DNA of 64,000 nucleotides from Millisia brevis NBRC 105863 (lineage in GTDB: Bacteria > Actinomycetota > Actinomycetes > Mycobacteriales > Mycobacteriaceae). Below, in pieces: positions 3 to 23,344 of this stretch (positions are counted from its first letter, which is position 1; each line of letters starts with the position of its first letter). The stretch is from assembly GCF_001552615.1 (NCBI RefSeq), contig NZ_BCRN01000001.1:310001-374000 (forward strand). Direction: 5' to 3'. Both the position numbers and the translations under genes were made by a program. The notes under the pieces were generated by a model that saw only the letters and a list, made by a program, of their open reading frames with translations, made no database searches and had not been told where the DNA came from.

Positions 3-1043
3 TACGAGCCCGACCACCGACCGGAGAACGCCGGGGGCGCCCTGGCGACCGACAGCCGCGGCCTGCTCAAGCGGATGCACGCCGACTTCACCGAGCGCAC
101 CGGCCTGGAGCTGCGGACCGGCACCGAACCGGAGATGACCTGGGAGGGCCCCGGCTTCGAGACCACCTTCCGCCCGGATTCGTCCCCGGCGTACCACATC
201 GAACACCTCGAGCGGTACCGCGTGATCTACCAGAAAGTGATCACCTATGCGCGGGCGATGGGCCTGGACATGATCGAGGGTGACTTCGAGGACGCCGGTC
301 AGGTCGAACTCAACTGGATGTACGACCACGCCGATCTGACCGCCGACCGGCTCGTCACCTACCGGCAGATCGCCAAGCAGGTCGCCCGCGAGCTCGGCAT
401 CGAGTGCAGCTTCATGCCCAAGCCCGGTACCGGCTATATGGGCAACGGCTGCCACCACAACTGGAGCCTGTGGACCGCCGACGGCGAGAACGTCCTGCGG
501 GAGACCGGCCGCGAGGAGCTGCACCTGACCGAACAGGGCCAGTACGCCCTCGGTGGTCTGCTCGAGCACACGCCGGGCGCGATGCTGATCATGGGATCGA
601 CGGTCAACTCCTACAAGCGGTACTGGGACGCCGGCCAGTTCGCGCCCTCGCGGATCGACTGGGGTCTGGACAACAAGACCTGCACCGTGCGGCTGTCGGC
701 GAACGGCCGACTCGAGTACAAGCTGCCCGACGCCTCGGTCAACCCCTATCTCTCGCACGCGGTCATGATCGCCGCGATCGACGACGGTCTGAAGAAGAAG
801 ACCTCGCCGGGCGACCCGACCGTCGGCTCGTCGTACCTGTCGACCGCGCCGGAGATCTTCGACAAGCTGCCGCTGAGCCTGGGCGAGGCGATCTCGGCCT
901 TCAGCGCCGACGACTACCTGCAGCAGTCGTTGGGGCCGGAGCTGTCCGACCTGCTGGTCGACTACAAGACCGACGAATGGGCCCGCTTCAACAGCGCGGT
1001 CACCACCTGGGAGCGCGATATGTACTGGAACGATCTGCCGTGA
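3..1043 (+). CDS. Glutamine synthetase family protein, C-terminal part (5' end outside window)
   Basis: The reading frame is open from the window edge, so only 346 C-terminal residues are visible. They hold the catalytic barrel of the glutamine synthetase fold: a GNGCHHNWSLW segment at the place of the usual G-S-G-x-H-x-H-Q-S-L loop, and RLEYKLPDASVNPYL at the place of the R-x-E-(Y/F)-R-x-P-D-x-x-x-NPY motif. The family ligates glutamate to ammonia or, in GlnA3/PuuA/FluG-like branches, to amines. The altered loop, a Lys where Arg is usual, and two PuuD-like hydrolases downstream suggest gamma-glutamylation of an amine rather than glutamine supply; this is inference. The next gene overlaps its stop codon, so they are probably one operon. 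Confidence 0.88.
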   Translation, partial: YEPDHRPENAGGALATDSRGLLKRMHADFTERTGLELRTGTEPEMTWEGPGFETTFRPDSSPAYHIEHLERYRVIYQKVITYARAMGLDMIEGDFEDAGQVELNWMYDHADLTADRLVTYRQIAKQVARELGIECSFMPKPGTGYMGNGCHHNWSLWTADGENVLRETGREELHLTEQGQYALGGLLEHTPGAMLIMGSTVNSYKRYWDAGQFAPSRIDWGLDNKTCTVRLSANGRLEYKLPDASVNPYLSHAVMIAAIDDGLKKKTSPGDPTVGSSYLSTAPEIFDKLPLSLGEAISAFSADDYLQQSLGPELSDLLVDYKTDEWARFNSAVTTWERDMYWNDLP

Positions 1044-1798
1044 CGGACGCCGATTCGGGACGCCCGGACGGGACCGGGGCGGTCGACGCCGCTCCGGTCC
1101 TGCGGTTGGCCTGCATCGACACCGATGCGCCGCCGCTGTTCGACCTCGCGGCCGCCGACGGCAGCCGCACCGGCTTCGAACCGGCGGTGGCCGAGTTGCT
1201 CGCGCAGCAGCTCGGCCGGCGGCTGGAATGGGCGATCATGCCGTGGGGTCGGATGCTGCCGGCCGTGCGCGACCACGAGGTCGACGCCGTCCTGTGCGGG
1301 CAGGGGGTCATCCCGGCCCGGCTGGAGGTGGTCGACTTCGCCCGGCCCTACGGGGTCTTCCACGAGGGTCTGCTGACCCGTCGCGGTGAAGCGGTGCCGG
1401 GGCCCGAGCATCTGGCGGGCCGGCGGATCGCGGCGATCGAGGGGTCGGCGAACGAGCGGTTGGCGCGCACCTTCCCCGACGCCGAGGTCGTCACCTTCGC
1501 GACCGACAACGTCTACCAGGACATGTTGGCCGCGCTGCGGGCCGGCGAGGTCTTCGGCGTCGTCGACGACGACGTGGTCTTCGTTCCGCTCGGCGACTCC
1601 GACCCCGACTTCGAGCTGGCCTTCGTGGTCAAGACCAACAACCCGTGGGCGGTCGGCGTCGCGAAGGATCGGCCGGAGACCTTCGCGCTGATCGACGCCG
1701 CGATGGCCGCGATCATCGCCGACGGGCGGCATCGCGAGGTCTGGCAGAAGTGGCTGCCGACCCTCGACTACCCCTTCGCCGAGCAGGTCGACCGGTGA
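1040..1798 (+). CDS. Solute-binding-protein-fold (SBP type 3-like) protein without signal peptide
   Basis: This is a 252-residue protein with the bilobal fold of ABC amino-acid-binding proteins (family 3): a first lobe with FEPAVAELLAQQLGRRLEW, the conserved DAVLCG-type strand, a hinge near GRRIAAIEGS, and a C-terminal lobe ending KWLPTLDYPF. The GTG start overlaps the TGA of the glutamine synthetase (GTGA), which implies translational coupling. The first 30 residues are polar and Pro/Asp-rich, with no hydrophobic core, lipobox or twin Arg, so the protein looks cytoplasmic. No permease or ATPase gene is adjacent. It may sense or deliver the amine or amino-acid substrate of its neighbours, but that is inference. 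Confidence 0.82.
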   Translation: MTDADSGRPDGTGAVDAAPVLRLACIDTDAPPLFDLAAADGSRTGFEPAVAELLAQQLGRRLEWAIMPWGRMLPAVRDHEVDAVLCGQGVIPARLEVVDFARPYGVFHEGLLTRRGEAVPGPEHLAGRRIAAIEGSANERLARTFPDAEVVTFATDNVYQDMLAALRAGEVFGVVDDDVVFVPLGDSDPDFELAFVVKTNNPWAVGVAKDRPETFALIDAAMAAIIADGRHREVWQKWLPTLDYPFAEQVDR

Positions 1799-1823
1799 GC
1801 CCGCGCGACACGACGGTGGACGC

Positions 1824-2543
1824 ATGCGGCCGCTGATCGCCGTGCCGGGCAGGCGCAGTCCGCAGGTCGGTGTGCTGCGCTTCTCGGGCACGATCATGGC
1901 CGAGGCAATCGCCGAGGCGGTGTGGGCGGCCGGCGGCGAGCCGCTCGCCCTGCACGGGCCGGATGCCGACCCGGCGGCCGACCTGGTCGCCCGGCTGGGC
2001 CGCTTCGGCGGTGTGGTCATGCCGGGCGGCGGCGATATGGACCCGGCCCGCTTCGGGCAGTCTGCCGCGCCGGAGTCCGAGCCGCCGATGACCCACGACG
2101 ACGACCTCGACTTCGGGGTGGTCGACGCGGTGCTGACGCTCGGCATCCCGACGCTGGCGATCTGCCGGGGGATGCAGGTGCTCAACGTCGCGCTCGGCGG
2201 CACGCTGATCCAGCACCTCGAGCCCGGACCGGTCGTCCACCGCGGCGCGGTCCACGATGTCGCGGTCGATGCGGGCTCCCGGCTCGCGGCGATCGTCGGT
2301 GCGCCGACCGTTCCGGTGTCGTCGTATCACCACCAGGCGATCGACACGGTCGGCCGCGATCTGGTGGTCACCGCCCGAGCGGCCGACGGCTGCATCGAGG
2401 CACTCGAGCACACCGCGGGCACCGTCCTGGCGGTGCAGTGGCATCCGGAGGACCTGCACGCGACGAGTCCGACGGATACCGCGCTCTTCGTCGATCTGAT
2501 CGAGCGCGCGGAAAAGTATGTGACCGATGGGGATCGGACGTGA
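1824..2543 (+). CDS. Gamma-glutamyl-gamma-aminobutyrate hydrolase (PuuD-like) family, copy 1
   Basis: This is a 239-residue class I glutamine amidotransferase-fold hydrolase. The catalytic triad is visible: Cys114 in LAICRGMQ, His207 and Glu209 in QWHPE. The YHHQAID segment typical of PuuD-type enzymes is also present. PuuD cleaves gamma-glutamyl-amine intermediates to free glutamate. The ATG start lies 25 bp after the previous stop, and the gene sits in the same operon as a glutamine synthetase-like ligase. That pairing recalls the Puu route (ligate glutamate, process, hydrolyse), although no gamma-glutamylputrescine oxidase or aldehyde dehydrogenase is adjacent in this window. Confidence 0.85.
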   Translation: MRPLIAVPGRRSPQVGVLRFSGTIMAEAIAEAVWAAGGEPLALHGPDADPAADLVARLGRFGGVVMPGGGDMDPARFGQSAAPESEPPMTHDDDLDFGVVDAVLTLGIPTLAICRGMQVLNVALGGTLIQHLEPGPVVHRGAVHDVAVDAGSRLAAIVGAPTVPVSSYHHQAIDTVGRDLVVTARAADGCIEALEHTAGTVLAVQWHPEDLHATSPTDTALFVDLIERAEKYVTDGDRT

Positions 2544-2591
2544 TCGTCCCACCCGGACGGTCGATCCCGCTACAACTGGAGGACTGAAAAC

Positions 2592-3389
2592 GTGTCGGTG
2601 ACACCCGTTGTGACCCGAGCCGAGGTGGAAGATCCCGGCGCGCTGGACCGTTCGCCCGGCCGACCACACGTCGCGGTACTGGGCTCGCTGAACTATCCGG
2701 ACCTGACCGAGTCGACCGCGGAGCTGGTGCGGCGCTTCACCCGCACCGCCCTCGAAGGCCTCACCGCCGCCGGGGCGTCGTACACCCTGGTCGACTCCTC
2801 CGTGCCGGAGGAGTTGGCGGCCGCGGCGGTCGACGCCGACGCGCTGTTCGTGCTCGGCGGCGGGGATATCGCGGCGGCCTGCTACGGCGGACCGTCCGGC
2901 GAGGTGCCGAACTCCTACGGTGTGGACGAGGCGGTCGATCGCGCCTCGATCGCGCTGATCACCGACTACGCCGACGGCGGGTACCCGGTCCTGGGGATCT
3001 GCCGGGGATCGCAGTTGATCAATGTGACCTACGGCGGGTCGATCATCCCCGACATCACCGATTACGCGCTGCACCACGGCGGCCCGGACGAACCGCTCTT
3101 CCTGGACGAGAAGATCACCGTCGTGGCGGGGACCCGGCTGGCGGGCATCGTCGGCCCCGGCACCCTGGTCGTCCGGTCGGGCCACCATCAGGCGGTCGAC
3201 CGGGTCGGCGACGGGCTGGTCGTGGCCGCCCGCGCGCTCGACGGCGTCGTCGAGGGCGTCGAGGATCCGAACCGTTGGGTGCTCGGGGTCCAGTTCCATC
3301 CCGAGGACGACGACGGCGGGGAGCGCGAGCTGCGCCTGCTGCTCGGCGCCCTGATCGAGGCCGCCGGTCAGCCGAGGGTCTCGGGGTAG
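2592..3389 (+). CDS. Gamma-glutamyl-gamma-aminobutyrate hydrolase (PuuD-like) family, copy 2
   Basis: This second class I amidotransferase-fold hydrolase has 265 residues and a triad of Cys137 (LGICRGSQ), His236 and Glu238 (QFHPE). The start is GTG with a GGAGGA ribosome-binding site about 8 bases upstream. It is clearly diverged from copy 1: the N-terminus is longer, GHHQAVD replaces YHHQAID, and the active-site loop is followed by an acidic DDDGG stretch. Two different hydrolases after one ligase suggest two substrates or a hetero-oligomer. Its 3' end overlaps the convergent S9 peptidase gene by 22 bp. Confidence 0.84.
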   Translation: MSVTPVVTRAEVEDPGALDRSPGRPHVAVLGSLNYPDLTESTAELVRRFTRTALEGLTAAGASYTLVDSSVPEELAAAAVDADALFVLGGGDIAAACYGGPSGEVPNSYGVDEAVDRASIALITDYADGGYPVLGICRGSQLINVTYGGSIIPDITDYALHHGGPDEPLFLDEKITVVAGTRLAGIVGPGTLVVRSGHHQAVDRVGDGLVVAARALDGVVEGVEDPNRWVLGVQFHPEDDDGGERELRLLLGALIEAAGQPRVSG

Positions 3390-6518: not shown

Positions 6519-7304
6519 ATGCCTGAGGGGGACACCGTCTTCCAGACGGCGGCCCGGCTGCGCGGCGCCCTGGAGGGGCAGGTGCTGACCGGCTGCGATA
6601 TCCGGGTGCCGCGCTATGCGACCGTCGACCTGACCGGTCTCCGGGTCGACGCGGCACTCTCACGCGGCAAGCATCTGCTGATCCGCGTCGGCGCGCACAG
6701 CATCCACACCCATCTGAAGATGGAGGGGGTCTGGGAGGTCTACCGGCCGCCGGCGCGGTGGCGGCGGCCGGCGCATACCGCGCGCATCGTGCTGGGGGTG
6801 GACGGCGCGCAGGCCGTGGGCTTTTCGCTCGGCATCACCGAGGTGGTGCCGATAGCCGACGAGGAGAAGGCGATCGGGCCGCTGGGTCCCGACCTGCTCG
6901 GCCCCGACTGGGATGCCGGGGTCGCGGCGGCCAATCTGGCACGCGACCCGGACCGTCCGATCGGGTTGGCGCTGCTCGACCAACGCCTGCTGGCCGGCGT
7001 CGGCAACGTCTACCGGTGTGAACTGTGCTTTCTGCGCGGGGTGCACCCGGCGACGCCGGTGGGTCGGGCGGGCGACCCGGACGCCTGGGTCGACCTGGCG
7101 CACCGGTTGCTGGTGGCCAACCGCGATCGACCGGTGCGGGTCACCACCGGCGACCGGCGGCGCGGGCGATCCACCTGGGTCTACGAACGGGCCCGCCGCC
7201 CCTGCCTGCGCTGCGGCACGATCATCCGCACCGGCACGCTCGGCGGCGGGGATTCCGGCGACGACGAACGCATGATCCGGTGGTGTCCCGGCTGCCAGCG
7301 GTGA
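6519..7304 (+). CDS. Fpg/Nei family DNA glycosylase (endonuclease VIII-like)
   Basis: The 261-residue protein starts MPEGDT: Pro2 is the Schiff-base nucleophile and Glu3 the proton donor of the family. Next comes the THLKMEG strand, an H2TH region (LLDQRLLAGVGNVYRCE) and a C-terminal zinc finger (CLRC..CPGC) in the last 38 residues. It excises oxidised bases and cleaves the abasic strand. MPEGDT rather than MPELPE places it with Nei. The linker inside the zinc finger (GTLGGGDSGDDERM) is longer than usual. Confidence 0.92.
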   Translation: MPEGDTVFQTAARLRGALEGQVLTGCDIRVPRYATVDLTGLRVDAALSRGKHLLIRVGAHSIHTHLKMEGVWEVYRPPARWRRPAHTARIVLGVDGAQAVGFSLGITEVVPIADEEKAIGPLGPDLLGPDWDAGVAAANLARDPDRPIGLALLDQRLLAGVGNVYRCELCFLRGVHPATPVGRAGDPDAWVDLAHRLLVANRDRPVRVTTGDRRRGRSTWVYERARRPCLRCGTIIRTGTLGGGDSGDDERMIRWCPGCQR

Positions 7305-7316
7305 TCGGCCGGCCGC

Positions 7317-8291
7317 TCAGGCGCTGCGCTCCGTCGGATCCGACTCGTCGGCGCCCGGGCAGCCGTATTGGGCGCGCAGGCGTCCGCGCACCGACTCCGG
7401 ATGCGGCGCCGGGCGCGGCGGCCAGCGGCGGACGGTCCCGCGCAACCGACCGGCGAAGAAGGCGACCTCCGAGGCCCACCGGGTGCGATCGAGCTTGGTG
7501 ACCGCCTGCGGCAGAAGCGGATTGCGCGTGATGACGTAGAGCGCGGCCATCGCGATCTCCAGCGGCGTCCAGCCGGGCAGACCGTAGTCGCGGAACTCGG
7601 CGTAGGTGCGGGCCTCGGCGATCCCGAATGCGTGCAGGCGCCGCACCAGCTTCCGTCGCGAATCCCGAAGACGATAGGAGACAACCGCTTCCGGCGTGTA
7701 GCCGAGGGTATAGCCGGCCAGCTGGAGCCGCCACGCGAAGTCGGGCTCCTCGCCGGCGATGCGGTAGCTCTCGTCGAAGCCGCCGATCGCGCAGAAGGCA
7801 TCGCGGCGCACCCCGACGTTGCCGCCCGGCGCGCAGGGCAGGAAGCGGGCTCGTTCGAACGACTCGCGGATGGTGGTGACCGGGCGCCAGGCGAGCACCT
7901 CCGGGGAGTTGAGGCTCTCCCCCTCGAGTTCACCGGCGACCGCGTCGTAGTTGTCGGCGGCCGCGACGATGCCGGACAGCCAGGTCGGATGCGCGACATC
8001 GTCGGCGTCGACGAAGACCAGCAGGTCCCCCCGGCTGTGCAGGGCACCGACATTGCGGGCGTGCGCCGCGCCGCGTTGATCGCTCGCGTCGACCACCCGG
8101 ATCGTGGTGCCGTCGGGGGGTGTCGGCAGGTCGCGCAGGTATTCGGCGGTGCCATCGGTCGATCCGTTGTCGGCAAAGACCAATTCACGCGGACCGGCGT
8201 AGTCCTGCGCCAACAGCGCGCGCACCTGCTCCTCAATGGGCACACGCGTATTCAGGAATGGGACGATCACGGAAACGAGCTGTGGTGGCAT
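7317..8291 (-). CDS. Glycosyltransferase family 2
   Basis: This 324-residue GT-A fold enzyme begins with VSVIVPFLN, has the nucleotide-binding DNGSTDG loop and a metal-binding D-x-D in FVDADD. The C-terminal part has no obvious multiple membrane segments. The ATG at 8291 follows a purine-rich GAGGGG site and starts four residues before the first core strand; longer starts add a non-family leader. Its acceptor is unknown. It is convergent with the Nei gene (12 bp apart). Confidence 0.88.
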   Translation of the reverse strand: MPPQLVSVIVPFLNTRVPIEEQVRALLAQDYAGPRELVFADNGSTDGTAEYLRDLPTPPDGTTIRVVDASDQRGAAHARNVGALHSRGDLLVFVDADDVAHPTWLSGIVAAADNYDAVAGELEGESLNSPEVLAWRPVTTIRESFERARFLPCAPGGNVGVRRDAFCAIGGFDESYRIAGEEPDFAWRLQLAGYTLGYTPEAVVSYRLRDSRRKLVRRLHAFGIAEARTYAEFRDYGLPGWTPLEIAMAALYVITRNPLLPQAVTKLDRTRWASEVAFFAGRLRGTVRRWPPRPAPHPESVRGRLRAQYGCPGADESDPTERSA

Positions 8292-8430
8292 AGGACGACC
8301 CCTCGCCGCATGGTCAACTTCTGGCATCTTTCCGGACACGATTGAGGAATCGGACGGTAGCACGCCGGAGTTACATGCACGCGGAAAGCAGCGGCCCCAA
8401 GGTCGTTTCGGTGATCCGGGAAACAGCCGC

Positions 8431-9327
8431 TCAGCTGCCGTGACAGATGTTACCCAGATATTCCGAGAGGTCGCTTCGAGTCGGATCGCCGACCGGGATG
8501 CGCGCATACTCCGGTGCGCCGTCGCCGAAGGCGATCCACACGGGGAAAACGAATGGCTTCTTCGAATCCGCGACGACGTGATCGGCGCAGGTCGCCGGAC
8601 CGATCAACAAGGGCACCCGAAGCTGATCGGAGTCGGCTTCCATTGTCACCGGCAATGGCTGCGCCGGATCGGAGACGACATTCCAGACCACCGATCCGGC
8701 CACCTCGTCGACTCGGATGGGATCGGTCTGCGCGGCGTCGCCGCGCCCGATCGTCAGCGTCGCGTGGCGTTGCGGGAAGCCGGTGGTCGGCACGCCTCCG
8801 GTCGAGTCCGCCGGCCCGTCGAGGGTGAGGGTCATCGAGATCCGTTCGGCGATCCGCTCCGCCGCGCATTCCTCGTTGTGGATGCGGTCGATGATGTCGT
8901 AGGGCTGAGCAAGCGGCACCGTCTCGGTAGCCGATGCGCCGGAGGCGTCGAGATAGGCCACCACCGCCTCGATCGGTTGGACCGAGGCGGCGCAGTCGGC
9001 AGTGCCGAAGGTGACCGGAACGTCGAGGCGCGCACCGGGGCCCATGCTCAGCGGCCGGTCGGAGGGCGGGGTCTCGGCGAATGCGGGCGATCGGAATTGC
9101 ACGGTCTGCAGCGTGATCGCCGCGTCGGAGGCATTGGTGACGGTGATCTGGAAGCGGCCGCCGCGCGCATCATCGTCGCGGCTGCGGTACGCCGACGCCT
9201 CGATCGTCCCCGCCGCCGGCTGCTCGGCCACCGACCCGTTCGCACAGCCGGAGACCAGCACCACCACCCCGAGCAGAAAGGCCCATCCACGCACCCACCG
9301 ACCGTACGTGCGTTTCGGCACGCTCAC
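8431..9327 (-). CDS. Secreted lipoprotein of unknown function
   Basis: The 298-residue protein starts GTG and has a basic n-region, a hydrophobic core (WAFLLGVVVLVSG) and a VSGC lipobox. The mature form would therefore be anchored outside the membrane by a diacylated Cys. The mature part looks like two beta-rich repeats with a conserved Cys pattern (CAAS, ECAAE, TCADH, NICHG). I do not recognise the family. The start is uncertain: a second GTG lies two codons on, a third lies just before the hydrophobic core, and no clear ribosome-binding site is present, so the message may be leaderless. It is divergent from the M20 peptidase gene. Confidence 0.72.
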   Translation of the reverse strand: MSVPKRTYGRWVRGWAFLLGVVVLVSGCANGSVAEQPAAGTIEASAYRSRDDDARGGRFQITVTNASDAAITLQTVQFRSPAFAETPPSDRPLSMGPGARLDVPVTFGTADCAASVQPIEAVVAYLDASGASATETVPLAQPYDIIDRIHNEECAAERIAERISMTLTLDGPADSTGGVPTTGFPQRHATLTIGRGDAAQTDPIRVDEVAGSVVWNVVSDPAQPLPVTMEADSDQLRVPLLIGPATCADHVVADSKKPFVFPVWIAFGDGAPEYARIPVGDPTRSDLSEYLGNICHGS

Positions 9328-11812: not shown

Positions 11813-13951
11813 CTATCCGGCGGGCGTCACATCCGTTCCCGATCCCTTGACCGACGCCTTGGCCCGGTTCTGCGGTCGCACCGCCCGGGTGCCGCGGACG
11901 AATCCGGTCACCGAGATCTCGGCCGACACCAGCGCGTCCTCGCCGGCGACAAACGGGTGGAACGCCACCCCGGCGCCGCCGCGCCCCTTGACGGGGATAT
12001 CGGCGACCTCGGTGACCTTCCAGCCCTTGTCCGAGATCGACAGGAGCGCCTCACCGTTCGCGCAGGACACCGGCAGCGCGGCGATCACCTCGTCACCGTC
12101 GGCGGCGAGCTTCACCCCGGCGACGCCGTTGCCCGCGGCGCCCTGCGGGTTGACCGCGGCCGGGTCGATGCGCAGGATCTTGCCGCGGCGGGTCACCAAC
12201 GCCAGGTGGTAGCCCTCGGGCAGTACCCCGGAGCGCAGCAGCCCGGTGATGTCCGGGGCCACCGGGATATCGCGGATCTTGAAGGGCAGGCCGCCGCCGG
12301 TGGTGAACTTGACCCGACCGTCGGTCCACACCGCCCAGCCCAGGCCGGAAGTGAGCAGCTCGCCGTGGCTGTCGGAGAAGACGCCGCGATCGTCCAGGCG
12401 CCACGCGGTATTGACCTTCCGCTCGCGCGGACCGTCGTCGTCGGCGCCGGTCGCCACCGGGGTCGCGTCGTAGTCGAGCACGGTGCGCCGGTCGAACTCG
12501 GGGCCCTTGAACAGTTTCGCGGTCGCCACCAGCTCTCGGTCGATGACCGTGCGCCGCGCGTCGGGGTTGGAGACCAGCTCGGTCAGCTCGGCGAACTCGG
12601 CGTCCAGCTTGTCGGCCTCGGCCTGCAGCTCGATCACGTCGAGCTTGGTCAGCCGGCGAAGCTGTAGGGCCAGTACGTAGTTGGCCTGTTCCTCGTCGAT
12701 CTCGAAGTGCGCCTGCAGGCCGGTGCGGGCCTCGTCGACGGTGTCGGAGCCGCGGATCACCGCGACCGCGGCGTCGATGTCGAGGTGGATCTTCATCAGG
12801 CCCGCCACCAGATGTCGCCGGGCGGTGACCTTTTCGAGCCGGTACTCGCTGCGGTGCAGCACCACCGAGTCCCGCAGGTGCAGGAAGGCGCCGATCAGCT
12901 CGCGGACATTCCACCAGCGGGGCACCCGGTCCTCGTCGAGGGCGACCAGGCTGGCGGCGAAGGTCGACTCGAGCGGTGTGAGGGCCAGCAGTTGGTCGCG
13001 GATCTGCTCGGCGTTGTGGCCGCGCTTGGCGGTGACCACGATGCGCAGCCCGTTGCGGCGGTCGGTGAGGTCGGACATGTCGGCGACCCCGGACATCTCA
13101 CCGGATTCCACCAGCGCTCGAATCCGGTCCTGCACAGTATTGCTCGCGACGCCGGGCGGCAGTTCGGTGACAATGCAGTTCTTGCCCTCGACGTTGATCG
13201 TGCCGCGAACGGTCAGCTGCCCGCGCCCGGTGGTGATGTATTCGCGCAGCCCGGCGGTGCCGACAACGGTGGCCCCGCATCCCCAGTCGGGACCGGGGAT
13301 CAGCTTCATCAGGGTGTCGTCGGTGGTGTTGGGCCGGGCGAGCAGTGCCCGGCAGGCGGCCATGATCTCGCGCGGATTGTGCGCGGGCACCTTGGTGGCC
13401 CAGCCTTCGGCGATACCGACGGCACCATTGCACAGCAGCACCGGCCATTGAGCGGGCAGCATCGTCGGCTCGGTCCACTCGCCGTCGAAGGTCGCCACCA
13501 TCGGCACGGCGTGGTCGTCGAGTTCCGCGGTCAGCGCGGCACCCGGTGCGGACAGCCGCATCTCGGTATACCGGTCGGCGGCGGGGATATCGCCCTGGAT
13601 GCGGGGGAAGGCGCCCTGCCCGTCGATGACCTTGACGCGCTGGAAGTCCGCGGCCATCAGCGCGGCGGCCCCGTACATCGAGGCGCCGCCGTGCGGGTGC
13701 AGGTTGCCGGTCACCGCGGAGCAGACCTTGGAGGACTTCTGCGGCTTGTTGCCGGGCAACAGCTTCGAGTCGTGCATCTGGTACAGCAGGCGGCGCTGGC
13801 CGGGCTTGAGCCCGTCGAACGCGGACGGGATGGCGCGGTCGCTGACGCTGTAGAGCGCAAACGTCAGCTGGTAGTGGTTCCAATAGTCGTCGGCGCTCTG
13901 GTCGAGCACCAGCTCGGGATTCTGCTCGGGAACGTCCAGGGTGGCGGTCAC
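11813..13951 (-). CDS. Type IIA DNA topoisomerase, GyrA/ParC-like subunit (TopoN/M-type)
   Basis: The 712-residue chain has the winged-helix and tower of GyrA/ParC (FDGLKPGQRRLLYQM, then HPHGGASMYGA), with the DNA-linking Tyr128 in AADRYTEMRL. It is about 120 residues shorter than actinobacterial GyrA, and the C-terminal beta-pinwheel has no GyrA-box (QRRGGKG), so negative supercoiling is not expected. The partner subunit lies 10 bp upstream in the same operon. A second type II topoisomerase of this kind (TopoN/M) is known from Mycobacterium smegmatis; assignment here rests on recognition of pattern and context. The gene overlaps neither neighbour. Confidence 0.88.
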   Translation of the reverse strand: MTATLDVPEQNPELVLDQSADDYWNHYQLTFALYSVSDRAIPSAFDGLKPGQRRLLYQMHDSKLLPGNKPQKSSKVCSAVTGNLHPHGGASMYGAAALMAADFQRVKVIDGQGAFPRIQGDIPAADRYTEMRLSAPGAALTAELDDHAVPMVATFDGEWTEPTMLPAQWPVLLCNGAVGIAEGWATKVPAHNPREIMAACRALLARPNTTDDTLMKLIPGPDWGCGATVVGTAGLREYITTGRGQLTVRGTINVEGKNCIVTELPPGVASNTVQDRIRALVESGEMSGVADMSDLTDRRNGLRIVVTAKRGHNAEQIRDQLLALTPLESTFAASLVALDEDRVPRWWNVRELIGAFLHLRDSVVLHRSEYRLEKVTARRHLVAGLMKIHLDIDAAVAVIRGSDTVDEARTGLQAHFEIDEEQANYVLALQLRRLTKLDVIELQAEADKLDAEFAELTELVSNPDARRTVIDRELVATAKLFKGPEFDRRTVLDYDATPVATGADDDGPRERKVNTAWRLDDRGVFSDSHGELLTSGLGWAVWTDGRVKFTTGGGLPFKIRDIPVAPDITGLLRSGVLPEGYHLALVTRRGKILRIDPAAVNPQGAAGNGVAGVKLAADGDEVIAALPVSCANGEALLSISDKGWKVTEVADIPVKGRGGAGVAFHPFVAGEDALVSAEISVTGFVRGTRAVRPQNRAKASVKGSGTDVTPAG

Positions 13952-13961
13952 GGTGGGTCTC

Positions 13962-15995
13962 CTACGTCAAATCCAGCGCGGAGGTGTCGACCATGGAGGC
14001 CACATCGGCCATCCAGGTGCGCCGCCCCTCCGGCGGTCCGCCGAACAGAATGTGGTGCAGCCGCTTCTCGTCCTCGTCGAGGTGTACCCGAATCACGGTG
14101 CGCCGCTGCGGGTCCAGCACGGTATTCCAGAAGTCGTCGGCATCCATCTCGCCGAGACCTTTGTTGCGCTGCACCTCGACCTTGCGCTTGGAGGAGGCCT
14201 TCAAGCGGGCCACCGCGGCGTCGCGTTCCGACTCGTCCTGACAGTAGATCCGCTCGGTACCGTCCTTGACCACGAACAGCGGCGGCAGGGTCACGTAGAC
14301 CATGCCCGCCTCGACCAGCGGCCGGTAGAAGTCCAGGAACATCGAGATGAGGCTGGAGTTGATGTTGCCGCCGTCGGGGTCGGCGTCCGAGGCGAAGAGG
14401 ATGCGGTCGTAGCGACATTGCTCGGGATCGCAGGTGTCGCGCACCCCGCAGCCCAGGATGCGCTCGATCGCGTCGAACTCGTCCTTGACCCGCGCCTTGG
14501 TGAGGGTGAAGCCGTACACGTTGGGCGGCTTGCCTTTCAGCGGGAACGCCGCCTGGAAGGTCGCGTCGCGGGCGGCCTTGATGGTGCCGAGCGCCGAGTC
14601 GCCCTCGCAGAGGAATAGTTCGGCGCCCGACCCGCGTCCGGTCTCCCTGCTGGGTAGCAGCTTCGGCGGCAGCGACAGGTTGGTACCGAGCCCCTTGGCC
14701 CGCGAGGCCGCCCGCGAGCGCGCCTTGGCACCCTCGGCGCTGCGGCGGGCGCGGGCCGACTCGAGGGCCAGCTTCGTCCACAGGCTCACCGCGTCGCCGT
14801 TGGTGGGGTTGGCCGCCCAGATCGTCACGCTGCGTGCGACATCCGGGGCCATCGCGACGTTGAGCGAACGCGATGACACCGCGGTCTTGGCCTGCGAATC
14901 CCAGGCGACGTCCGGGGCACGCGTGTCGACGGCCAGCGCGGTGACCGCGGCGAAGTCCTGCGGCTCGGGACCTTCCTCGCCCTTGGCCAGGCCCAGATCG
15001 CGGATGCGCGACGCCCGGTCGGCCAACGCCTCGGACAGCCCCTTCATCGCTGCGTTGAGATGCGACCCACCGCCGGGGGTGCGCACGGTATTGCAGAACG
15101 CGGCCACGGTGGCCGGTTCCGCCGGGCCGGCGCTGAGCGACCAGCGGAACGGGGTGGGCCCGCGGCCGGTGGTGTACTCGCCGCGCCCCTCCACCGTCGA
15201 GCGCACGCCGGGTACGGGGGTATCGCCGGCGGTGCACATCAGGCTCAGCAGCGCCTCGGTGCCCCACGGGCCGCTGAACGGTTCGAGCAGGGCGGCGGGC
15301 AGTTCCTCGCCGGGGCGCCCCTCATCGACGACGACCAGGTGCACCCCGGGAGACATCCGTGCGGCGGCGTGCGCGCGCAGCAGGACCTCGCCGATGTCCA
15401 CGCTGGTGTCGGGCACCACGGTCGGATCGAACAGGATGCGCACCGTCGTACCGTGCAGGTCGGGTTTGCGATTGCTCACACCGCGCAGTTTCTGGGCGTC
15501 CGCGCGGGTGAAGGGGGCCTCGGCGTCGAATTCCTTGCCCTCGAAGGTGCCGGGGTAGCCGCCGCCGAAGCTCTGCAGGTAGGTCTTGCCGGCGCGGCGC
15601 ACCGTCACGTCGGTGCGGGCGGAGATGAAGACCGCCGCGGCGGCGCCGATGCCGTTCAACCCGGCGCCGGTGCTCGCGGCGTCGGCGTGGGCGGAGAACT
15701 TCCCGCCGGCGCGGGCGGTGCCCAGCGTCTTGACGATGCCGTTCTTGCCGGTCACCGGGTCGGAGTCGACCGGCAGGCCGCGACCGTCGTCGGCGACGCT
15801 GACCGAACCGTCCGCATGCAGGGTGATCGTGACCTGCGAGCCCCCGTGGGCGGGGACGGCGACCTCTTCGATCGCGTTGTCGACCAGCTCGCGCAGGGCC
15901 GTGTTGAGCACGTCGAGACCCAGGTTGACCGCCGGCCGCAGGCGGGTGTGCTGGACATCATCGAGCTCGGTGATGTCTGCGGCGGTGTAACTCAA
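13962..15995 (-). CDS. Type IIA DNA topoisomerase, GyrB/ParE-like ATPase subunit (TopoN/M-type)
   Basis: The 677-residue protein has a GHKL ATPase domain (Asn40 in RELVDNAIEE, DDGRGLPV at 69-76, GLNGIGAA at 112), a transducer, and a TOPRIM domain with Glu464 in CEGDSALG and the Asp pair in SDADPDGGN (537-541). KGLGEMDADDFW near the end is the usual C-terminal signature. Departures from housekeeping GyrB are GDSALG for GDSAGG, DPDGGN for DVDGAH, and a GCGVRDTCDPEQC cysteine cluster (516-527). The start is TTG after a GGAAAGGA site; no ATG fits. It is translated just before the GyrA-like subunit. Confidence 0.88.
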   Translation of the reverse strand: MSYTAADITELDDVQHTRLRPAVNLGLDVLNTALRELVDNAIEEVAVPAHGGSQVTITLHADGSVSVADDGRGLPVDSDPVTGKNGIVKTLGTARAGGKFSAHADAASTGAGLNGIGAAAAVFISARTDVTVRRAGKTYLQSFGGGYPGTFEGKEFDAEAPFTRADAQKLRGVSNRKPDLHGTTVRILFDPTVVPDTSVDIGEVLLRAHAAARMSPGVHLVVVDEGRPGEELPAALLEPFSGPWGTEALLSLMCTAGDTPVPGVRSTVEGRGEYTTGRGPTPFRWSLSAGPAEPATVAAFCNTVRTPGGGSHLNAAMKGLSEALADRASRIRDLGLAKGEEGPEPQDFAAVTALAVDTRAPDVAWDSQAKTAVSSRSLNVAMAPDVARSVTIWAANPTNGDAVSLWTKLALESARARRSAEGAKARSRAASRAKGLGTNLSLPPKLLPSRETGRGSGAELFLCEGDSALGTIKAARDATFQAAFPLKGKPPNVYGFTLTKARVKDEFDAIERILGCGVRDTCDPEQCRYDRILFASDADPDGGNINSSLISMFLDFYRPLVEAGMVYVTLPPLFVVKDGTERIYCQDESERDAAVARLKASSKRKVEVQRNKGLGEMDADDFWNTVLDPQRRTVIRVHLDEDEKRLHHILFGGPPEGRRTWMADVASMVDTSALDLT

Positions 15996-21835: not shown

Positions 21836-23344
21836 ATGACCGAGATCCTGAGCCCGCCCGAGACGTCCGTGCTGCCTTCGGTCCGCGACTGGCTCGCCCG
21901 CCCCCACCAGCTGTTCATCGGTGGACAGTGGGTCGACGCCGCGTCCGGGCAGACCTTCGAGACCCGCGACCCGGCCACCGGGCAGGTCCTGACGTCGGTC
22001 GCACACGGCGGAGCCGAGGACGTCGATCGGGCGGTACGCGCGGCCCGCAAGGCCTTCGAGGGTGAGTGGTCGCTGTGGACGCCGGCGCAGCGCCAACGGC
22101 TGCTCTTCCGCATCGGTGAGGCGATCTACGACCACGCCGAGGAACTCGCCCAGCTCGAATCGCTCGACAACGGCAAGTCCGCGGGCGTCGCCCAGGCCGT
22201 CGACATCACCTGGGTCGCCGAGCTCTTCCAGTACTACGCCGGCTGGGCCACCAAGATCGAGGGTCGCACCATCCCGGTGTCGGTGCCGTGGGCGCCGGGC
22301 ACCAAGTGGCACGCCTACACGCTGCGCGAGCCGATCGGCGTCTGCGGCGCGATCGTGCCCTGGAACTTCCCGCTGCTGATGGCCGCGTTCAAGGTGCCCG
22401 CCGCCCTGACCACCGGCAACACCGTCGTCCTCAAGCCCGCCGAGGACACCCCGCTCACCGCGCTGCGCCTCGCCGAGATCATGGCCGATGCGGGTCTGCC
22501 CGACGGCGTCTTCAACGTGATCACCGGATACGGAGACGCCGGCGCGGCCCTGGCCGCGCACGACGACGTCGACAAGATCGCCTTCACCGGATCGACCGAG
22601 GTGGGCAAGCTGATCGTCGACGCCGCCAAGGGCAACCTCAAGAAGGTCACCCTCGAGCTCGGCGGCAAGAGCCCGCAGGTCGTCTTTGCCGACGCCGATC
22701 TCGACCTGGCGATCCCCGGAACCGCGTCCGGCTTCCTGTTCAACCACGGCCAGACCTGCACCAGCGGCACCCGCATCCTGGTCGAGGACAAGATCTTCGA
22801 CGAGTTCATGCAGGGTGTTGCCGACGCGGCGTCCGCCAGCCGGCTCGGACCGGGCCTCGACCCGTCCACCGACGTGGGCCCGCTGGTCTCCCAGGTGCAG
22901 CTCGACCGCGTCCTCGGCTACATCGATCAGGGCCTCAGCGACGGTGCCCGCGCGCTGACCGGCGGCCGCCGCCACGGCGACACCGGCTACTTCGTCGAAC
23001 CGACCGTGCTGGTCGACGTCGACGCCTCGTTCAGCGTCTACCGCGAGGAGATCTTCGGGCCGGTCGTGGTGGCCACCCCGTTCAACGCCGAGCAGGGCCC
23101 GCAGGCCGCGGCGAACGACACCCCCTACGGCCTGGCGGCATCGGTGTGGACCACCGACGTGTCCAAGGCACATCTGACCGCCCGGCAGGTCAAGGCCGGC
23201 ACCGTGTGGATCAACGCGCACAACGCTTTCGACGCCGCGCTGCCGTTCGGTGGCTACAAGCAGTCCGGTTGGGGTCGTGAACTCGGCGCCGCCGCGATCG
23301 ACGCCTACACCGAGCACAAGTCGATCAATACCTTCCTGGGCTGA
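21836..23344 (+). CDS. NAD(P)-dependent aldehyde dehydrogenase
   Basis: The 502-residue enzyme has all family motifs: the VPWNFPLLM nucleotide loop, FTGSTEVGK, general base Glu274 in LELGGKSP, nucleophile Cys308 in GQTCTSG, EEIFGPV and [13 protein letters not shown]. It oxidises aldehydes to carboxylates in the cytosol. A GGAGGA ribosome-binding site is present. The gene is divergent from an AcoR/MimR-type regulator across 233 bp and is followed by an acyl-CoA ligase gene, although a strong hairpin lies between the two. Confidence 0.94.

Follow-up and report, generated by a model that had tools for sequence, protein, structure and literature searches.

A probable pip/mor-type operon in Millisia brevis with a conserved cytoplasmic protein of the solute-binding fold

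Described pip and mor clusters and the Millisia brevis locus

Gene clusters of the pip and mor type have been known for their cytochrome P450 since the late 1990s. The glutamine synthetase (GS)-like gene beside this P450 has been noted before and, to our knowledge, has been given no pathway role. Described here are four genes at the left end of a 64,000-nucleotide stretch of the Millisia brevis NBRC 105863 genome (the window; G000:C1:310001-374000 of 5.65 Mb), coding for a GS-like ligase, a cytoplasmic protein with the fold of a solute-binding protein (SBP) and two hydrolases of the Peptidase C26 (PuuD) class. With 12 kb of upstream sequence added (L008; window position = L008 position minus 12000), these genes are likely to form the 3′ portion of a catabolic operon of the pip/mor type, directed at cyclic secondary amines (pyrrolidine, piperidine, morpholine or close analogues). 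The operon type itself is known, and the SBP-fold protein is apparently an undescribed and strongly conserved component of it.

In Mycobacterium smegmatis, the FadR-like GntR protein MSMEG_6700 (PipR) regulates the use of piperidine and pyrrolidine (PMC2018728), the P450 MSMEG_6695 adjoins IS1096 (PMC3662644) and MSMEG_6693 belongs to the GS-like genes (PMC7816997). A GlnR binding site (peak 49) lies between MSMEG_6695 and IS1096, with regulation of the IS gene not being detected (PMC3662644). A review lists PipA and MorA as oxidising the N-heterocycles piperidine and morpholine, and also cites the function of the mor P450, ferredoxin and reductase as well as one study tying expression of the GS-like gene next to the pip/mor P450 to ammonia assimilation (PMC9477822).

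The M. brevis operon shares with the M. smegmatis pip cluster a GntR/FCD regulator, a CYP151-like P450, a ferredoxin and a GS-like gene in identical order, but it has a reductase gene and no IS1096. A literature search of open-licence papers found no mention of an SBP gene and two C26 genes downstream of the pip GS, including MSMEG_6688-6692. In Mycobacterium sp. HE5 the mor cluster (morABC) has the same order as seen here, with P450, ferredoxin, reductase and then GS. The cyp151-GS-xplBA region of Gordonia KTR9 plasmid pGKT2, which we take to be an RDX-degradation plasmid, is also similar, possessing a GntR-cache-P450 (70%)-GS (76%) block. Unlike the M. brevis operon, this region lacks SBP and C26 genes and runs on (L081, 10512-17523) directly into a FAD-dependent reductase and a second P450, presumably XplB and XplA. 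The pGKT2 GS gene (13367-14563) is not in the distributed gene table.

As to the P450 of M. brevis, its best match in the PDB is 3p3l (also 3p3o), scoring 252 bits, while the next distinct protein reaches 175. We take these entries to be AurH, a CYP151A, and the enzyme is likely a CYP151 member judging by this similarity. Its gene is co-linear with those for the ferredoxin and the ferredoxin reductase, a gene for a GntR regulator of the FadR/FCD type lies close by, and the GS-like gene is found 3′ of the P450-ferredoxin pair.

Gene content and order

The left edge of the window cuts the operon, with the 5′ half sitting upstream on the same strand as the ligase gene. The features are as follows.

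L008:5627-7138, minus strand (divergent): AA_permease_2 (APC-type) permease gene, by domain match
L008:7235 or 7301-8089, plus strand: GntR/FCD regulator (FCD 5e-15, GntR 4e-14)
L008:8086-8799, plus strand: cache/PDC-domain protein, by domain match
L008:8885-10120, plus strand: CYP151-like P450, by PDB matches
L008:10239-10430, plus strand: ferredoxin (Fd), 63 aa
L008:10433-11647, plus strand: ferredoxin reductase (FdR)
L008:11661-13043, plus strand (window 3-1043 = C-terminal 346 aa): type III GS-like putative gamma-glutamyl amine ligase, 460 aa, with Gln-synt_C domain
Window 1040-1798, plus strand: cytoplasmic SBP_bac_3-fold protein, 252 aa (SBP_bac_3 1.4e-22)
Window 1824-2543, plus strand: Peptidase_C26/PuuD-like hydrolase a (C26 8e-47; triad Cys114-His207-Glu209)
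Window 2592-3389, plus strand: Peptidase_C26/PuuD-like hydrolase b (C26 5e-37; triad Cys137-His236-Glu238)

The operon therefore reads P450-Fd-FdR-GS-SBP-C26a-C26b. The complete ligase open reading frame (ORF) starts outside the window, its ATG lying 340 nt beyond the left edge. The first-pass annotation, made from the window sequence, had described a GTGA overlap coupling the ligase to the SBP-fold protein, and this holds, the ligase TGA lying at 1041-1043 and the GTG start of the SBP-fold ORF at 1040. A promoter scan gave no signal beyond chance level. The cache/PDC gene stands beside the GntR gene in nearly all clusters, with no obvious membrane-sensor partner gene, and its product may be another sensor-fold protein with an intracellular action.

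The ligase and the C26 hydrolases

The ligase has a Gln-synt_C domain (5e-70). Among solved structures it comes closest to glutamate-methylamine ligase 9qur (the best match, 1.6e-53) and to a type III ligase, with which it has the motif GNGCH in common. The top model is that of the type III glutamate-ammonia ligases (TIGR03105), yet its 282 bits are below the cut-off of 469.6. The model for gamma-glutamylputrescine synthetase (NF045547; PuuA, GGputSyn) gives 189.9 bits (6e-56) with a cut-off of 650. Metal and catalytic residues are intact in all 39 GS sequences from the clusters compared, and a degenerate or inactive ligase was rejected on this ground. The ammonia-site Asp of the DGSS motif is missing from the cluster enzymes and the flap Glu is replaced by Phe in 39/39; both residues are present in the GlnA-type GS of the same genome (L036). 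With this Asp and Glu gone while the metal and catalytic residues are kept, the traits of the subfamily suggest that the acceptor is an amine and not ammonia, and an ordinary ammonia-ligating GS is unlikely.

The loop GNGCHHNW and the Lys of RLEYKLPD (for the usual Arg) had been regarded as alterations of this ligase. Both motifs are present, but they are normal for the subfamily: His266 and His267 each occur in 39/39 cluster sequences, Asn268 in 38/39 and the Lys in 37/39. GNGCHHN and the Lys are thus subfamily-defining traits and not oddities.

Both hydrolases belong to the Peptidase C26 (PuuD) class by virtue of a C26 domain and a Cys-His-Glu triad. The intact triads reported in the first-pass annotation are borne out by their contexts, AIC114/QWH207PE209 in hydrolase a and GIC137/QFH236PE238 in hydrolase b, and are retained in homologues. 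PDB matches for hydrolase a include 3fij (5e-27) and PuuD 6vtv (1.4e-18), and those for hydrolase b include 7d4r (5e-20) and PuuD (2e-9). With the PuuD equivalog model NF008471 the two score 74.9 and 45.7 bits, below its cut-off of 266. Hydrolases a and b are fused in one cluster (L045; G406 contig 12, about 7310-8803, minus strand) as a 512-aa ORF with two triads, and because these form a single ORF there, the two enzymes probably act together.

The SBP-fold protein

The SBP-fold protein has no hydrophobic leader, as had been proposed. In many of its homologues an in-frame stop is present 5-11 codons ahead of the domain, so no signal peptide is possible, even from a revised start; the start usually lies at or overlapping the end of the GS gene. 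No ABC permease or ATPase genes were identified in the clusters, including the newly added upstream sequence in M. brevis. The earlier view that the protein has no transporter partner thus holds for ABC systems, but a transporter does accompany the operon, namely the divergent APC permease.

A profile built from 14 SBP homologues gives matches to AncQR (3e-39) and to SBPs for glutamine/arginine, with Arg94 and Asp177 aligning with an Arg and an Asp of AncQR. These positions presumably bind the alpha-carboxylate and alpha-amino groups, as in LAO and GlnH. Arg94 and Asp177 are invariant in 38/38 homologues, as are Cys86, Asn138 and Asp176. An AlphaFold model of moderate quality, built from a four-sequence alignment (pLDDT 64, pTM 0.54), has a fold matching amino-acid SBPs with TM values of 0.5-0.6. 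The protein therefore resembles the polar amino-acid SBPs (GlnH and the substrate-binding domain of GlnP, LAO, AncQR), as well as cyclohexadienyl dehydratase, in fold and in its ligand-binding Arg/Asp positions. It differs from the polar amino-acid SBPs in having neither signal peptide nor ABC partner, and in a subfamily-conserved Cys86-Gly-Gln where Ser/Gly-x-Thr/Ser is usual.

The suggestion that this protein binds a small molecule intracellularly gains support from the conserved Arg94 and Asp177. Its ligand is probably a gamma-glutamyl amide or glutamate, the former because its free amino-acid head group would fit Arg94/Asp177 and because of the linkage with the GS gene. We tentatively propose, with a confidence somewhat short of even, that an SBP fold has been recruited to the cytoplasm as a binder of gamma-glutamyl intermediates (or as an enzyme), holding or processing a reactive intermediate between the P450, the ligase and the PuuD-type hydrolase, and that this arrangement is conserved across actinobacterial families.

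Distribution of the cluster

P450, GS and SBP genes stand together in 38 loci from five or more genera, so the gene association is not a matter of chance. The P450-Fd-FdR-GS-SBP-C26a block, with C26b, permease, GntR and cache genes nearby, occurs in Rhodococcus wratislaviensis NCTC13229 (L026) and Mycobacterium sp. URHB0044 (L047). The same block was also found in three further genomes from three families (L043-L045) and in a Rhodococcus metagenome-assembled genome (L049), the contig of which begins inside the permease gene and on which GntR, cache and C26b genes were not found. Thirty further loci, including P450-Fd-GS and P450-Fd-FdR-GS forms, are from the genus of genome G560, which we take to be Mycobacterium.

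Of the 248 genomes surveyed in this genus, 29 contain the P450 and 30 contain the SBP. Every one of the 29 genomes with the P450 has the SBP, against one of the 219 others (hypergeometric p about 5e-37, relatedness not corrected for). This lone genome (G620) also has the cluster, its P450 gene being split beside the GS-SBP pair. The SBP gene is carried by 31/31 Mycobacterium CYP151-like loci, in 28 directly after the GS gene and in three directly after the P450 gene.

GS-SBP pairs without an adjoining P450 were identified in R. opacus 1CP (L083) and in one further genome (L046). In the latter (G452 contig 37, 964-7146) the pair adjoins genes for a dimethylformamidase beta-like protein and a GcvT-like aminomethyltransferase, which suggests that it also serves a (di)methylamine-type pathway. 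The M. brevis genome itself has a second CYP151-like P450 (65%) together with an SBP (47%) and no GS (L009; G000:C13:157051-159025, minus strand). This pair adjoins genes for a luciferase-like monooxygenase, an aldehyde dehydrogenase, an alpha/beta hydrolase and two AA_synth proteins, and it probably belongs to a different heterocycle pathway.

Proposed pathway

From the observed gene content, order and conservation, the cytoplasmic location deduced from sequence and the conserved residues we infer the substrates and reactions in M. brevis, and the role of the SBP-fold protein, as follows. The APC permease would import a cyclic amine, under the control of the GntR/FCD protein as a PipR-like regulator. 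The CYP151-like P450, with ferredoxin and reductase, would hydroxylate the carbon adjoining the nitrogen to give a hemiaminal and then an omega-amino-aldehyde. By gamma-glutamylating the freed amine, the GS-like ligase could prevent its re-closure to a cyclic imine, so that the open form stays available for oxidation. The glutamylated aldehyde would then be the substrate of an aldehyde dehydrogenase, which in relatives is PuuC-like, and a PuuD-like hydrolase would free glutamate and gamma-aminobutyrate (GABA) or 5-aminovalerate, with a transaminase completing the route. The SBP-fold protein may act in the cytoplasm by holding or handing over an intermediate, or as a sensor, in connection with the ligase and hydrolase steps; the substrate carrier or sensor suggested in the first-pass annotation is thus a possible role.

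The R. wratislaviensis cluster has an aldehyde dehydrogenase whose best NCBIfam match is PuuC (6.7e-173, 576 bits, below the cut-off of 850) as well as a GABA transaminase scoring above cut-off. Together with the C26 hydrolases, these enzymes suggest a lower pathway of the Puu kind that receives its substrate from a P450. The E. coli Puu pathway (PuuA, PuuC, PuuD, PuuP) has the same logic of a gamma-glutamyl ligase, a C26 hydrolase and a permease, and it has in common with the relatives of this operon a PuuC-like aldehyde dehydrogenase and a GABA transaminase. In contrast to E. coli, the amine would here be freed from a ring by the P450 and not imported as a diamine, the GS is below the GGputSyn cut-off, there are two hydrolases and an SBP is present. 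The unusual gamma-glutamylation route postulated in the first-pass annotation is supported as to its chemistry, given the type III GS and the PuuD-type hydrolases. The data do not support a free-standing route, its upstream half matching a known pip/mor-type P450 cluster with a dedicated APC permease and a GntR regulator.

Alternative explanations

An ordinary Puu pathway for acyclic amines or polyamines, with the P450 being incidental, would account for the resemblance of the GS and C26 genes to PuuA and PuuD, including the 6e-56 match to GGputSyn, and for the PuuC- and GabT-like genes in relatives. However, the P450, ferredoxin and often the reductase cluster with the GS in 38 loci, the GGputSyn score is only 190 bits, and the syntenic M. 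smegmatis locus controls piperidine and pyrrolidine use; a plain polyamine operon is therefore disfavoured and appears quite improbable. Several observations also weigh against a pip/mor-type operon with a glutamyl-binding SBP-fold protein. Membership of the pip/mor type is a judgement from the order of the genes, the class of the GntR regulator and the family of the P450. There is no PuuC or GabT gene adjoining the operon in the M. brevis genome. Of its 17 aldehyde dehydrogenases, the closest to the PuuC-like enzyme of R. wratislaviensis (48%) is encoded about 18 kb away (window 21854-23344, plus strand) and might supply the missing oxidation step in trans; as the closest of 17 at this identity, it was not assigned as the missing PuuC. 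Other actinobacterial families have CYP151-like P450s (L067-L080; 44-57% identity) with nearly all partner genes absent, and these probably serve other pathways. The SBP is not indispensable everywhere, judging by the pGKT2 cluster, and the GS-less pair on contig C13 of M. brevis indicates that it may serve the P450 step and not the glutamyl step.

This last point bears on the possibility that the SBP-fold protein has turned into an enzyme, with the hemiaminal or cyclic imine as its substrate and its step falling after the P450 and before the ligase. The SBP gene adjoins the P450 gene both in this pair and where the GS gene has moved (L130-L132), catalysis has evolved in the same SBP family, with cyclohexadienyl dehydratase deriving from an amino-acid SBP (PMC7683729), AncCDT-1 and CDT are among the PDB matches, and Cys86, Asp176 and Asn138 are subfamily-specific invariant residues. 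Nevertheless, all 38 homologues keep the canonical Arg and Asp for ligand binding, as binding proteins do, the GS-SBP pair of L046 adjoins a dimethylformamidase-like gene with no P450, and no catalytic residue set was identified in the protein, which makes an enzymatic role rather unlikely. Far less probable still is an ordinary transporter subunit with a mis-called start or with ABC partners elsewhere. Membership of the SBP_bac_3 family and the annotation of the R. opacus 1CP homologue as 'ABC transporter substrate-binding protein' would agree with such a subunit, but this reading was rejected, with the stops ahead of the domain leaving no space for a leader, no ABC genes being identified in the clusters and uptake probably being performed by the APC permease.

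Significance

For cyclic amine catabolism, the conserved GS-SBP-C26 block, together with the PuuC and GABA transaminase genes of relatives, offers a testable role for the GS-like gene, namely gamma-glutamyl protection of an amino-aldehyde. It also brings to light an overlooked cytoplasmic SBP-fold protein that is present in every sampled mycobacterial cluster. If this protein binds or processes gamma-glutamyl intermediates, a transport-protein fold would be a metabolic component inside the cell, and there would be an intracellular binding-protein step in catabolism. Soil actinobacteria probably use this type of operon to consume ring-shaped amines, and almost every intact copy of it carries the gene for the SBP-fold protein.

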